Below are positions 8,098 to 16,567 of a stretch of 35,538 bases of DNA, piece by piece. The stretch's first letter is position 1. The number at the start of each line of letters is the position of its first letter. The position numbers were made by a program, and so were the translations under genes. The notes under the pieces are model-generated. The model saw nothing but the letters and a program-made list of their open reading frames with translations, had not been told where the DNA came from and did no database searches. This DNA is from an uncultured bacterium (lineage in GTDB: Bacteria; Planctomycetota; Phycisphaerae; Phycisphaerales; SM1A02): contig CAJCCX010000243.1 of NCBI GenBank assembly GCA_903961015.1, positions 1 through 35,538 on the forward strand, written 5' to 3'.

Positions 8098-8125
8098 CCC
8101 CAAAGGGGCTCACCGATGTTCGGTG
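8098..8125 (+). promoter_or_regulatory. Two adjacent short hairpins in the dcd-nrdJ intergenic region
   Basis: CCCC-AAA-GGGG (8098-8108) and CACCGA-TGT-TCGGTG (8111-8125), both perfect stems. Confidence 0.4.
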
Positions 8126-8182
8126 ATCCCATGCGTTTTATCTGTTCTCACATCATCAACCCAATTCCCGCAGGACGCACTC

Positions 8183-11100
8183 ATGAAAATTTCTCGACGA
8201 TTCACAACCAAAGACACGGATGTCTACACCACAACAGAATGGGCGACACGCTCAAGCAAGATCAAGAACCCGGACGGGTCCGTGGTTTTTGCGATGGATG
8301 ATGCCCAGATTCCAAAGGAGTGGAGTCAACTCGCAACCGATATTGTCGTCAGTAAATATTTCCGCAAGGCTGGAGTTCCACAAATCGGCGCTGACGGGAA
8401 GCCGACAACTGGACCAGAACGTTCAGTCAAGCAAGTCGTGCATCGACTTGCTGGATGTTGGAAACACTGGGGAGAAACGCACGGATATTTCGAAACAGCT
8501 GAAGATGCACAGGCGTTTTACGATGAAATCGCTTACATGCTCCTGAACCAAATGGCCGCCCCAAACAGCCCGCAGTGGTTCAACACAGGATTGGCCTGGG
8601 CGTATGGAATCAACGGCCCTGCCCAGGGACATTGGATCGCCGATCACCGAACCGGTGCTCTCGAACGCGCTCCCGATTCTTACACGCATCCACAGCCGCA
8701 CGCATGTTTCATTCAGTCCGTCAATGACGACTTGGTGAATGAAGGCGGCATTATGGATCTTTGGGTGCGCGAGGCGCGACTCTTCAAATATGGATCTGGA
8801 ACAGGCACAAATTTCTCCAGCCTTCGCGGAGACAGCGAGTCTCTTTCAGGTGGTGGAAAGAGTTCAGGCTTGATGAGTTTCCTCAAGATCGGCGACCGTG
8901 CTGCTGGAGCGATTAAGTCTGGCGGAACGACGCGACGCGCAGCAAAGATGTGTTGCTTGAATGTTGATCATCCAGATATCGAAGCGTTTGTAAATTGGAA
9001 AGTCCGAGAAGAAATTAAGGTTGCTGCGTTGGTCGAAGGAATGAAGAAGTTGAGCAAATCGCAGCATGCAGTTGCAGATCGACTCGGTTTGAAATTGGAT
9101 TATGACTTCAACGGTGAATCGTATTACACCGTCAGCGGTCAGAATTCCAATAACTCCGTACGACTCAGCGACGAGTTCATGGACGCCGTAAACACCGACG
9201 GAAATTGGAATCTCATTCGTCGTACCGATGGCGAAGTTGCCAAATCGCTCAATGCGCGCGAACTTTGGGGACAAATCAACGAAGCTGCATGGCACTGTGC
9301 AGACCCTGGCGTCCAATTCGATTCGACAATCAATGCTTGGCACACGTGCCCCGAAGGTGGACGAATCAATGCGAGTAATCCATGCAGCGAATACATGTTC
9401 CTCGACAACACGGCGTGCAATTTGGCGTCGATCAATCTGTTGAAGTTCTATGATTCACGAACGAGAAACTTCGACATTGCAGGCTACGAACATGCAATTC
9501 ACCTCTGGACGATGGTCTTGGAAATTTCGGTGTTGATGGCCTGTTTCCCATCGAAGGAAATCGCCGAACTCTCTTGGAAGTATCGCACGCTTGGATTGGG
9601 TTATGCCAATCTCGGCGCCATGCTGATGCAAGCGGGAACCCCGTACGACAGCGATGAAGGCCGCGCCATTTGCGGAACTCTCAGCGCAATTTTGACTGGT
9701 CGCTCATATGCATCGAGCGCCCTGCTTGCGGCGGAACACGGAGCTTTCGAAGGCTTTGACGAAAACCGCCAGCACATGCTGCGTGTCATTCGCAATCATC
9801 ACCGCGCTGCAAATGGTGTTGCTCGCGACAGCGATGATTATGAATCGCTGCGCTCGCGACCGGTGCCGATCAATCACAAACTCTTTCATGAAAACCGTAT
9901 TGCTCTTGCAAATGCTGACCAACTTCTAGCAAGCGCAACATCTGCGTGGGACGATGCACTCGCTCTGGGTGAGCAATTTGGTTATCGCAATGCGCAAGTC
10001 ACTGTGATTGCGCCGACTGGAACAATTGGCTTGTTGATGGATTGCGACACAACAGGTGTTGAGCCAGACTTCGCACTCACCAAATTCAAGAAGCTTGCTG
10101 GCGGTGGCTACTTCAAGATCGCAAATCAGTCCGTGCGACCCGCACTTTCTGCGCTTGGATATGACATCAAAGAAACAGATGCAATTCTCAAATATGTGAT
10201 GGGAACGCTGACTCTTGATGAGAAAATCCCAGCAACCGACGGTAGCGCTTCAGTCGGATTCCAGAGCCAAACGCTGAGTGAATTCCTGCTTGAGAAGGGT
10301 TTCACTAGCGCAGAATTGGTCAAAGTCGAAAATGGTTTGCCGACCGTCTTTGAATTGTCATTCGCATTTACTGCGTGGTCAATTCCAGAGCGCATTCTGA
10401 CTGGACTTGGAATCAACGCGGAAAAAGCTCGTGCGGACGAGAAATTCAATGGCCTTCGTGTGCTTGGACTGAATGGTCGACAGATCGACGCGCTCAATCG
10501 AACGATCTGCGGAACGCAGACGATCGAAGGCGCTCCACATCTTCTGCCAGAACATCTTGCGGTCTTTGATTGCGCGAACCGCTGCGGAGCACTTGGAACT
10601 CGATTCATCAAGCCGAGTGGTCACATTCACATGATGGCTGCAGCGCAACCATTCATCTCGGGAGCAATCTCGAAGACTGTCAATCTGCCCAACGATGCAA
10701 CTGTCGAAGAAATCGGCGCGTGCTATCAACTCTCTTGGGAACTTGGAATCAAGGCAAACGCGCTTTATCGAGATGGCTGCAAGTTGAGCCAGCCACTTTC
10801 AACAAAGTCTGAAGCTTCCGATCATGCTGAAGAGGAAGACCTTGATGGGCTTGAGGAAGAAAGCAAAAACGCAGAGAAGACACAGGTCGCAATCGTTGCG
10901 CTCGAACCTCGAATCATCGAAGTTGAACGCATCGTCGAGCGTGTCGTGGAACGAGTTGTCGAACGTGTCATCGAAAGACCGATGCGCCGGCGATTGCTTG
11001 ATACTCGTCACTCAATCACGCACAAATTTAATGTGGGTGGTCACGAGGGATATCTCATCGTTGGCCTCTATGAAGATGGACGACCCGGAGAGTTGTTCAT

Positions 11101-11908
11101 CACTATGGCCAAAGAAGGATCCACAATCGGCGGTCTTATGGACTCGCTGGGAACTGCGATCAGCGTTGCGTTGCAATACGGTGTTCCAGTCGAAAGTCTT
11201 GTCACGAAATTCGCTCATCAGCGATTCGAACCGATGGGAATCACGACGAATTCCGACATTCCATTCGCAAAGAGCTTGGTCGATTACATCTTCCGTTGGT
11301 TCGGCATGCAGTTTATTCAGGGCTACCGCGACGCGAATGCGCCAAAGCGTATTTCAGCAAGTGGACATTCCAATGATGGCTTCTCGCCGATGGACATCGG
11401 ACATATGGATCCCTCCATGACAACACCAGCTCCGGCTGCAACTGTTATCCCAACACCAAAGCCAACTTTGGCACCAACTCAGGAGACAACAACATGGTCG
11501 AGCAATCGATTCACAACAACTCAAGATTCACAAACAAAATTGTCCCAGAGCGGAACTCACATCATTGGTCGAACTTCCGACGGGGAGAAGATCGCAGACA
11601 TCTCATCGTCATCGAGAATCACAACATTCTTGCATGCGGACGACGCGAGGAGCAACGACGAATCTGCGATGACTCCAATGACACCAATTATCGTCGAGCA
11701 CGGAGAAATGCGACCGCTGGGACATCCAGCGCAATCGCTGGGACATCCAGCGCAATCGCTGGGAAGTCCCGCACTTACCGCGGCTGATCAGGCAAATGCC
11801 CAGTTGATGGGCGACGCGCCTGCGTGTGATTCTTGTGGCTCAATTACTGTTCGCAACGGCACGTGCTATCGCTGTTGGAATTGCGGTAGCAGCATGGGGT
11901 GCAGTTGA
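8183..11908 (+). CDS. nrdJ: Vitamin B12-dependent (class II) ribonucleotide reductase with TSCPD domain and C-terminal Zn-ribbon
   Basis: ATG 8183 ([15 protein letters not shown]); [82 protein letters not shown], TSCPD-like [27 protein letters not shown], C-terminal CDSCG..[8 protein letters not shown]. Confidence 0.95.
   Translation: [1241 protein letters not shown]
10929..10979 (+). repeat. In-frame degenerate ~12-bp tandem repeat encoding (R-[IV]-V-E)n in nrdJ
   Basis: Translation ..[19 protein letters not shown].., four 4-aa units before the TSCPD domain. Confidence 0.8.
11716..11764 (+). repeat. In-frame 21-bp tandem repeat (about 2.3 copies) in the nrdJ linker
   Basis: GCTGGGACATCCAGCGCAATC at 11716-11736 and 11737-11757, then a partial copy; encodes [19 protein letters not shown]. 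Each unit contains the inverted repeat GCTGG-gacat-CCAGC. Confidence 0.9.
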
Positions 11909-11925
11909 TTGGTGCTGATGAATAT

Positions 11926-11949
11926 TTCAACGACTCATTCAACGACTCA
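11926..11949 (+). repeat. Exact tandem duplication of a 12-mer just after nrdJ
   Basis: TTCAACGACTCA at 11926-11937 and 11938-11949. Confidence 0.9.
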
Positions 11950-11982
11950 AAGGGGGTCGGGCATCGATCTACTCCGACGATG

Positions 11983-12026
11983 CCTGATCCTCACAGTTTT
12001 CGCAGTGGTTCTGGTCAGGGTTTTTT
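11983..12026 (+). terminator. Putative intrinsic terminator after nrdJ, mutually exclusive with the upstream hairpin
   Basis: CCTGATC (11983-11989) pairs with GGTCAGG (12013-12019), possible inner TCAC/GTGG, then G and TTTTTT (12021-12026). Confidence 0.5.
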
Positions 12027-12209
12027 GAAACGGTTGGCGAGTGAATGGATTTTCCTTGCACTGGTTGGATACGCACGGAAACGGTGGATTCCAACCCCCT
12101 TATTTGGCGGGGAGAACCTGGCTACAAGAGGGTGACCGACTCTCAGGCTTGACCACTGCGGAATTTTGATCGAGGTTCAGGATGGACCTCGGAGTTCTTA
12201 CCCCGTCGT

Positions 12210-12238
12210 AGCGCACGCGCGCTGCGGCGGGTTTTTTG
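12210..12238 (+). terminator. Strong intrinsic terminator upstream of the DUF3754-like gene
   Basis: CCCGTCGTAGCGC..GCGCTGCGGCGGG stem (with two G-U pairs) followed by TTTTTT. Confidence 0.85.
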
Positions 12239-12262
12239 TTGGAGCTATCCTTCGTCATCACG

Positions 12263-13486
12263 ATGACTCCGAGTGCCCTCATCAAATCCGCCGTCAAGAA
12301 GAATCATGTGATCACCGTTTCGCAAGAACGAATTCTGAGTGTGATTGGTGAAGGGTTGACAGATGCGAATCACTTCACGCGAACACTTCGTCTCATTCGC
12401 CTCCTGTTGCGCACGGAAATCGATCAACAGTCGATCGAAATGCGACAGCGAATCGACACGATTGTGCATAGTTGCGATCGCAAATTGCCCATTGAACAAA
12501 GAGAAGCCGAGAGCACACGACTGACCAACGATATTCGTGCGATTCTGACCCGTGCAAACTATGCTGAACTCTCCGAAAGCGATCTTCAAACTGCGTTCAC
12601 AACTCAGTCACTGATTCGTCTGAACATACAAATCAATCGCAAACTCTGGAAGAGATCCGTCATTTTCGCGCGTGGAAGACACTTCACTTCCCAAACCGTC
12701 AGTGCTTGGTTCGGTCTGCGCAAGAAGACAATCAAACTTGAAGTCTTTGATCGCCTCTTTCTCTATGTGGAGCACCAACGAAAGCCCAATACAAAGCAGA
12801 AACCAAACGCAGCCAGTGAGCCCCCTTCGTTCTATGTTCGACTCTTCGAAAACATCCCCGTCGCAGATATGGAAATGCTCTTTCCAAACTGCGCGGTCGG
12901 AATGCACAACCTAGACAAATGCATCATGTTCGGCCCAGCGATTTTTGCCGTCATCGGAATCTCTGCTGGCATTCGCGCGAGTTGGATTGCGCTGTATAGT
13001 TCCGCTCGCTGGCAACTTGGAATCGATACCGCACCTCCTGATGTTCCTGGTGGCGCGCTCGCGGCCATAGGTGGCGGATTGGTCGCACTCATCATCTGGG
13101 GATATACGCAATTCAGTCGATACCAAAAAATGCGGTTGAAATATCTCAAGATCCTTGCGGACATGATCCTGTATCGAATGCTTGATCGAGATATGGGTGC
13201 AGCCGCACGCGTCTTGGATGAAGCGAGCGAAGAGGAATCGAAAGAGGCAATACTGGGCTACCGATTTCTGCTCGACGGCCCATCGACTGTGGATGCACTT
13301 GACGCAAAGATTGAGAGTTGGCTTCAAACACAATTCCAAGTGGAGATCGACTTTGAGGTCGACGACGCACTTGCGAAACTCGATCGACTTGGGATTGCGT
13401 CATGTTCGAATGGTGTTTGGACCGCAAAGTCGCCATCGGCCTTGATCCCTCACTTGCTTACTCAGTGGAATGCGTTGGCGCAGTAA
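12263..13486 (+). CDS. DUF3754 (TMEM143-like) family membrane protein
   Basis: Two TM segments (FGPAIFAVIGISAGIRASWIALY; GGALAAIGGGLVALIIWGYTQF) after an RLFENIPVADMEMLFPNC motif, as in DUF3754 proteins; ATG 12263 preferred over the ORF-track start 12236, which overlaps the terminator. Confidence 0.65.
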   Translation: MTPSALIKSAVKKNHVITVSQERILSVIGEGLTDANHFTRTLRLIRLLLRTEIDQQSIEMRQRIDTIVHSCDRKLPIEQREAESTRLTNDIRAILTRANYAELSESDLQTAFTTQSLIRLNIQINRKLWKRSVIFARGRHFTSQTVSAWFGLRKKTIKLEVFDRLFLYVEHQRKPNTKQKPNAASEPPSFYVRLFENIPVADMEMLFPNCAVGMHNLDKCIMFGPAIFAVIGISAGIRASWIALYSSARWQLGIDTAPPDVPGGALAAIGGGLVALIIWGYTQFSRYQKMRLKYLKILADMILYRMLDRDMGAAARVLDEASEEESKEAILGYRFLLDGPSTVDALDAKIESWLQTQFQVEIDFEVDDALAKLDRLGIASCSNGVWTAKSPSALIPHLLTQWNALAQ

Positions 13487-15391: not shown

Positions 15392-16567
15392 ATGTCTCAA
15401 CCGCTCATTCTCGCCGCTCGCAGAACACCAACTGGCAAATTTCAGGGATCTCTTGCGCGAATTCCATCTCCGCAACTTGGCGCCTTCGCCATCGCGGCTG
15501 CCCTTGCTGATGTTCCTGGCGCTGCCGCAAAGATCGACGAGTGCATTATGGGATGCGTTTTACAGGCTGGGGTCGGTCAAAACCCAGCCCGTCAAGCTGG
15601 GCTACGCGCTGGACTCCCGTCGTCGCTCAGCGCCGTCACTGTCAATAAAGTGTGTGGGTCGGGTCTGCATGCAGTCATGATGGCCGCGCAATCAATCCGC
15701 GCAGGCGACAACCATCTTGTCGTAGCAGGTGGAATGGAAAATATGGATTTGGCTCCGCACTTGGCATCCGTTCGATCTGGTGTGCGTTATGGCAAGTTCG
15801 AAGCGCTCGATCACATGGAGTATGACGGTCTTCGCTGTGCGTTCGAAGGATGGGGCATGGGACTCGCAGCGGAACACATTGCAACATCTCACGGCATCTC
15901 TCGTGCGGAACAGGATCGATTCAGCGCGCAGAGTCATGTGCGAGCCGCGCATGCCACCACGCAAGGATGGTTTCGCAAGGAAATCGTTGCACTCACCGCA
16001 GAACAAATCAAGCAGAAGACTGGGCTTGATGTGGACGAAGGATTCCGCGCAGAGAGTTCTGCTGAAACCCTTGCGAAATTGAAACCTGCATTTAAGCCAG
16101 ACGGAACTGTCACTGCTGCGAATGCGAGCCAAATCTCAGATGGCGCGGCAGCATTGATCGTGGCATCAGAAGCGGCGGCGAAATTACTCAACGCGAAGGC
16201 TCTTGCACGCATCTTGGGTTCCAACACAGTTGGTGTCGAACCAAAGGAACTTTTTTTCGCCCCTGCTCTGGGCATCGAAAAAATCCTCAAAGATCATTCA
16301 CTTTCTGTGGATGACATCGATCTTTTCGAGATCAACGAAGCGTTTGCAGCGCAAGTTCTTTGCAATACGAAACACCTAAAAATCAGCGAAGAAAAGGTCA
16401 ATGTTGGCGGTGGCGGGATTGCGATGGGACACCCGATCGGTGCAAGTGGCGCGCGCGTTCTGGTCACACTGGTTCACCACCTCATTCGAACCAATGGGCG
16501 CAGAGGAATTTGCAGCCTGTGCTTGGGCGGTGGCAACGCAGTGACGATGTTGATCGAACGAGTCTGA
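15392..16567 (+). CDS. Acetyl-CoA C-acetyltransferase (thiolase)
   Basis: ATG 15392 after AAAGGAG; ARRTPTGKFQGSL, VNKVCGSGLHAVMMAAQSI, NEAFAAQ, GGGGIAMGHPIGASGARVLVTL, CLGGGNAV. Confidence 0.94.
   Translation: MSQPLILAARRTPTGKFQGSLARIPSPQLGAFAIAAALADVPGAAAKIDECIMGCVLQAGVGQNPARQAGLRAGLPSSLSAVTVNKVCGSGLHAVMMAAQSIRAGDNHLVVAGGMENMDLAPHLASVRSGVRYGKFEALDHMEYDGLRCAFEGWGMGLAAEHIATSHGISRAEQDRFSAQSHVRAAHATTQGWFRKEIVALTAEQIKQKTGLDVDEGFRAESSAETLAKLKPAFKPDGTVTAANASQISDGAAALIVASEAAAKLLNAKALARILGSNTVGVEPKELFFAPALGIEKILKDHSLSVDDIDLFEINEAFAAQVLCNTKHLKISEEKVNVGGGGIAMGHPIGASGARVLVTLVHHLIRTNGRRGICSLCLGGGNAVTMLIERV

Follow-up and report, generated by a model that had tools for sequence, protein, structure and literature searches.

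A putative CsrA-binding RNA conserved in the 3' region of nrdJ in a family of Phycisphaerales

CsrA is found in many phyla. In a review, control of CsrA by Csr small RNAs is tied to the Gammaproteobacteria, with protein antagonists such as FliW found elsewhere (PMC7652899). The loop contacted by RsmE/CsrA is an ANGGAN hexaloop in which N is variable, and the repeat of CsrB reads CAGGA(U/A/C)G (PMC7652899). In 2014, CsrA-binding RNAs were proposed for Clostridia and for Bacillales/Lactobacillales; TwoAYGGAY (RF01731) and Bacillaceae-1 (RF01690) are proposed RNAs of this type outside the Gammaproteobacteria (PMC4333381). In Xanthomonas, RsmU is an RsmA-sequestering RNA that is processed from a 3'-UTR (PMC7694677).

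A stretch of 35,538 nucleotides from an uncultured member of the Phycisphaerales, referred to here as the window, was analyzed. The 287-base gap between nrdJ and a DUF3754 gene (11952-12238, + strand) holds an RNA directly downstream of nrdJ, as in every relative checked. Judged from sequence comparison, this RNA is probably of the Csr/Rsm type and would bind CsrA, either sequestering it, letting it act on the nrdJ mRNA, or both. It is like CsrB/CsrC and RsmX/RsmY/RsmZ (Rfam clan CL00106) in having GGA in many hairpin loops (ANGGAN, CAGGA(U/A/C)G), a terminator and CsrA in the same cell. In contrast to those RNAs, it has a different core with a conserved four-way junction, a constant position after nrdJ, no match in Rfam and a host outside the Gammaproteobacteria. 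Of the CsrB and RsmX/Y/Z family models, only rsmX gave a match, over the last hairpin and the terminator, at 17.9 bits (E 0.39) and below the cut-off of 56; the RNA is not a member of those Rfam families. This was the best of the matches to Rfam 15 at E<=10, all at chance level, and a search of the whole window at gathering scores returned nothing. No credible match was found at gathering and permissive thresholds in the window and in the loci of 20 relatives, where the TwoAYGGAY model (RF01731) also had no match, and a plasmid collection searched with the RNA gave none. TwoAYGGAY and Bacillaceae-1 share with the nrdJ RNA the paired hairpins, the AYGGA-type loops and a proposed sequestration of CsrA, but the nrdJ RNA occurs in different taxa, has a fixed nrdJ context and allows any second letter rather than only Y. 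RsmU is similar as an RsmA/CsrA-sequestering RNA from the 3'-UTR of a protein gene, although its host gene is comEA and not nrdJ, its binding is experimental while that of the nrdJ RNA is predicted, and the two were compared by description rather than by sequence similarity.

The features of the locus are listed in Table 1. A preliminary description of this DNA had proposed an unannotated, closed multi-helix RNA with a strong terminator at its 3' end. This was borne out: no Rfam family matched at 11952-12238, covariation was strong and the RNA is kept through the taxonomic family. All the pairings named in that description were found, and the terminator has a 13-bp stem and six T. The proposed GAAA tetraloop was not conserved, and comparison gave a larger P4 loop instead, ACGGANNNN. 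The separate hairpin CGAGGTTC-AGGAT-GGACCTCG is real and more telling than first described, because its loop, CAGGAUG, is the CsrB repeat. The stretch GGCGAGYGAAYGG may resemble part of the 23S rRNA.

Table 1. Features of the nrdJ RNA locus, in window coordinates.
Feature	Position	Strand	Basis
nrdJ, class II (B12-dependent) ribonucleotide reductase	8123..11908	+	Pfam PF08471, PF02867, PF12637
5' hairpin, conserved loop CUCCGAC (11972-11978)	11952..11992	+	folding, comparison
Stem of 5' hairpin	11954-11966/11978-11990	+	folding
Structured core, closed by P1	11998..12163	+	P1 covariation
Long-range helix P1	11998-12010/12151-12163	+	folding; covariation, 9/15 pairs changed on both sides
Four-way junction P2-P3-P4-P5 (model R2)	12031..12138	+	98.4 bits with R2 (built including this sequence); covariation, 57 sequences
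P2	12031-12035/12134-12138	+	model R2
P3 hairpin (GCGAG/CUUGC), loop AUGGA (12045-12049), first candidate ANGGA site	12037..12059	+	A,G,G,A in 57/57
P4 hairpin, loop ACGGA (12075-12079), second candidate ANGGA site	12063..12096	+	57-sequence alignment
P4 helix (GGUUGGA/UCCAACC; GGTTGGA/TCCAACC in the DNA)	12063-12069/12090-12096	+	folding
P5	12097-12101/12128-12132	+	model R2
3' hairpin, loop CAGGAUG (12178-12184), third candidate CsrA-type site	12171..12191	+	sequence; CsrB repeat CAGGA(U/A/C)G (PMC7652899)
Intrinsic terminator (stem 12202-12231, 13 bp, then six T)	12202-12237	+	sequence

The + strand of 11952-12238, which is present once in its own genome, folded to -141.2 kcal/mol compared to -99.9 +- 5.3 in 200 dinucleotide shuffles (z -7.9, no shuffle equal), with a pair probability >0.85 for most helices. 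The - strand reached a z of only -2.8. Covariation was examined in two alignments of relatives. The first, A1, contains 18 sequences of the genus and 47 pairs and was used to build covariance model R1. In A1, 93.7% of cells pair, against <=45% for slid structures, and 14 pairs are changed on both sides, against 7.2 in shuffles. The second, A3, contains 57 sequences from about 20 genera, including sequences found with R1, and gave covariance model R2 of the core P2-P5. In A3, 92.3% of cells pair, 132 cells are changed on both sides compared to 41 +- 9 in shuffles, and the covariation score is 0.383 against <=0.138 for slid structures. The helices are thus supported by compensatory changes, and 11952-12238 and its relatives are a conserved, covarying RNA. 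Chance folding, or a decayed coding sequence as might be read from a 78-aa GTG ORF overlapping the gap (11899-12135), has practically no probability next to the z score, the covariation and the family-wide conservation, and the covariation refutes it. That ORF is without support because the DNA there evolves by compensatory base changes, in agreement with the earlier reading that the gap has no credible ORF.

DNA similarity revealed the RNA in the majority of the genomes in the genus, and parts of it in other genera. With R1 at E<=0.1, matches came from 71 of the 301 genomes in the order, nearly all of them in the same family. R2 extended this to 125 of 181 family genomes, which cover 34 of 45 genera; nearly all of these genomes had just one copy. 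When R2 was run on a class-wide sample, the family matches all had E<=1.6e-5 and those outside the family all had E>=0.0057. A second match in genome G015 (24.8 bits) and one in G105 (24.7 bits) were treated as false since neither adjoins nrdJ, and the weak matches outside the family (E 0.006-0.05) were mostly dismissed. Two of these, L126 and L127, directly follow nrdJ and look like true diverged relatives. Diverged relatives downstream of nrdJ were also found elsewhere in the order, in other families (L128, L129 and L137 in f2; L132 in f3; L131 and L152 in f4). These six retain a GGCGAGUGGAUGGA-like stretch and several also have the CUCCGA hairpin. In families f5 and f6, some genomes have GGA loops alone in the nrdJ 3' region, and others have no such loops there.

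The elements follow each other as 5' hairpin, P1 closing the junction, P2, the P3, P4 and P5 hairpins, the 3' hairpin in this genus, and the terminator. Upstream of the core, 49 of 59 family loci have a hairpin that exposes UCCGA on a stem of differing sequence, and such a hairpin is seen in other families too. Pairing of the 5' CUCCGAC loop with GUYGG of P2 fits some sequences and fails in L015 and L023, and is therefore not claimed. P5 is variable, being minimal in L019 and carrying inserted hairpins in L020, L069, L081 and L025. The loop of the 3' hairpin is kept as C-AGGAC-G in members of the genus and in L017. Separately, the nrdJ 3' region of many genera (L158-L170) has a pyrimidine-rich, UUCUCUUCCCUCCCCC-like stretch in the 40 bases that precede its terminator, and similar C-rich runs occur in other families as well. 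Pairing with Shine-Dalgarno sequences or protein binding is conceivable for this stretch. In one relative, the interval from the nrdJ stop to the RNA contains a tandem repeat of GCACGTCATT (L013 ~1790-1860, - strand).

The only invariant columns of the 57-sequence core alignment are A18, G20, G21 and A22 in the P3 loop and G54 in the P4 loop. At the P3 site, A, G, G and A are found in every sequence, while the letter between is U in 42, C in 8 and A in 7. At the P4 site (n=57), A is found in 56, then C in 39, U in 10, A in 7 and G in 1, followed by G in 56, G in 57 and A in 56. A51, G53 and A55 are broken by one misaligned row only, L072 (AGGGA, shifted). The P3 and P4 loops are read as CsrA-type ANGGA because A and GGA are fixed and the letter between them is free in both. 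With the 3' hairpin, the window RNA has three candidate sites, in keeping with the several GGA loops of Csr/Rsm sRNAs. Against the Csr/Rsm reading, three sites are few compared to CsrB, and the loops of P3 (13 nt) and P4 (9 nt) exceed the optimal hexaloop in length. Also, the core sequence (e.g., GGCGAGUGRAUGGA) is conserved beyond the needs of known Csr sponges, which hints at an additional function.

GGA loops were then counted against shuffled sequences, with 40-60 shuffles per test. Outside P3 and P4, 25 representatives drawn from 20 genera have a total of 29 A(N)GGA hairpin loops, compared to 3.6 +- 1.5 (max 7 of 40) after everything except P2-P4 was shuffled; this test was not blind, since the loops of the same loci had already been seen. 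Among all 64 loop trinucleotides, GGA was the most enriched (35 vs 9.6 +- 3.1), and CTC, which occurs in the CUCCGAC loop, was second. Thirteen family members from previously examined loci, picked only for having nrdJ and no R2 match among those listed, had 29 A(N)GGA loops in the nrdJ 3' region, compared to 1.8 +- 1.1 in shuffles (max 5 of 60) and to one loop on the reverse complement. Examples are GGACA-AAGGAAC-UGUCC, GGGC-AGGAC-GCCC and GCCGA-ACGGAUC-UCGGC. Twenty-five loci from other families of the order had 16 A(N)GGA loops, compared to 2.3 +- 1.6. In 400 kb of the relative G052, scanned on both strands (8416 windows), three scan windows had three such loops and two of these were the nrdJ 3' region, making it one of only two places with that many. 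These last three tests are independent of the R2 alignment, except for the choice of the R2-negative genomes. Within the 35-kb window alone, the RNA locus is high in GGA loops and not unique; the case therefore rests on comparative evidence. A stretch of a thiolase gene (15793-16124, + strand) equals the RNA in this respect, folding with 3-4 GGA loops, probably by chance.

Another possible explanation is that the RNA is a ribozyme, a ligand-binding RNA or an antisense sRNA acting through the CUCCGAC loop, with ANGGA serving folding or a different protein. The strong sequence conservation around the loops and the separate conserved loop of the 5' hairpin are consistent with this. We consider it improbable, as the free N between fixed A and GGA speaks against it, as do the unrelated extra hairpins and the core-less relatives, which keep the GGA loops only.

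Linkage to nrdJ was checked for 100 strong matches. A nrdJ match on the same contig was listed for 98 and all 98 RNAs lay downstream of it on the same strand; the other two are loci already seen beside nrdJ. Distances were taken from where the nrdJ match ends, often short of the true C-terminus; where the stop codon was located, the core starts 93-557 bases past it. The gene that follows the RNA differs among relatives, with DUF3754 only in some close relatives. The riboswitch reading in the preliminary description is thus not supported, since the RNA is always downstream of nrdJ and is not the 5' leader of a kept regulated gene. Its other suggestion, a standalone 6S-like RNA, does not agree with a multi-branched fold that lacks the one long hairpin with a central bubble and has no match to the 6S model (RF00013). 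Size, compact fold and terminator would suit either a riboswitch acting on the gene that follows or a 6S-like RNA, but both are very improbable given the changing downstream gene, the constant upstream nrdJ and the Rfam results.

The strict linkage on one strand, the single copy in nearly all genomes and the absence of a sigma-70-like promoter site in 11500-12400, where a consensus scan proves little in this phylum, would also suit a cis-acting target. CsrA bound to the nrdJ 3' region would then mainly protect or destabilize the nrdJ mRNA, with no role as a sponge. This is rather unlikely, as CsrA normally represses at 5' leaders, and a stability element would not require so elaborate a core or as many as four additional GGA hairpins. 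The RNA could have both roles. Known Csr/Rsm sRNAs have a promoter of their own and control of the GacA/UvrY type. A 3'-UTR origin is at least as likely as a standalone ncRNA because the RNA is inseparable from the nrdJ 3' end and no promoter-like site was found.

The nrdJ gene was found in 104 of 104 good-quality family genomes. In the window, the C-terminal third of its product (8123-11908) has protein repeats in the linkers around the TSCPD domain (VERIVERVVERVVERVIE; GHPAQSL twice), and these linkers differ in length among relatives. In several relatives, nrdJ is broken by an in-frame insert near residue 420. In nrdJ of G067 (L157:2794-3900), the insert has intein splicing and LAGLIDADG domains, and a similar gap is seen in G097, G457 and G507.

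The genome of the window encodes CsrA (PF02599 at G000:C279:5380-5544; protein MLVITRREGEEVVIG...REVAVHRKEV). Another contig of the same assembly encodes PSD1, PSCyt1 and DUF1501 proteins, which suggest a planctomycete. CsrA was found in 178 of 181 family genomes and in all 104 of good quality. Since CsrA is nearly universal in the family, its co-occurrence with the RNA is uninformative on specificity; CsrA in the same genome is necessary and not specific. Many family genomes have two CsrA paralogues, one scoring ~80-90 bits and the other ~55. The window's genus and genera g2, g6, g18 and g43 have the weaker-scoring type only and still keep the RNA.

Under the Csr/Rsm reading, the RNA would form the 3' portion of the nrdJ transcript, be processed from it, or come from an unrecognised promoter at the end of nrdJ. 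The ANGGA motifs displayed in its hairpin loops would bind dimers of CsrA, a translational regulator. The P3 and P4 sites would fit two-site binding by one dimer, with a third site in the 3' hairpin. To an extent proportional to nrdJ transcription, CsrA would thereby be titrated off the mRNAs it targets, and its binding may also alter the stability of the nrdJ mRNA. Because the RNA is tied to nrdJ, its level would track ribonucleotide reductase expression. We infer CsrA binding, sequestration, processing and the physiological link to dNTP synthesis from these comparisons. The wider proposal, that the whole bacterial order may use the 3' region of the nrdJ transcript as a dedicated CsrA sponge, with DNA-precursor synthesis setting CsrA activity, is plausible and more tentative.

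If true, the mRNA of a ribonucleotide reductase would contain a Csr circuit. With a conserved RNA carrying invariant CsrA-type sites after nrdJ, a further phylum would be added to those in which RNAs control CsrA, and that control would be connected to dNTP synthesis; the RNA would also provide a handle for the study of CsrA in organisms that are hard to culture.
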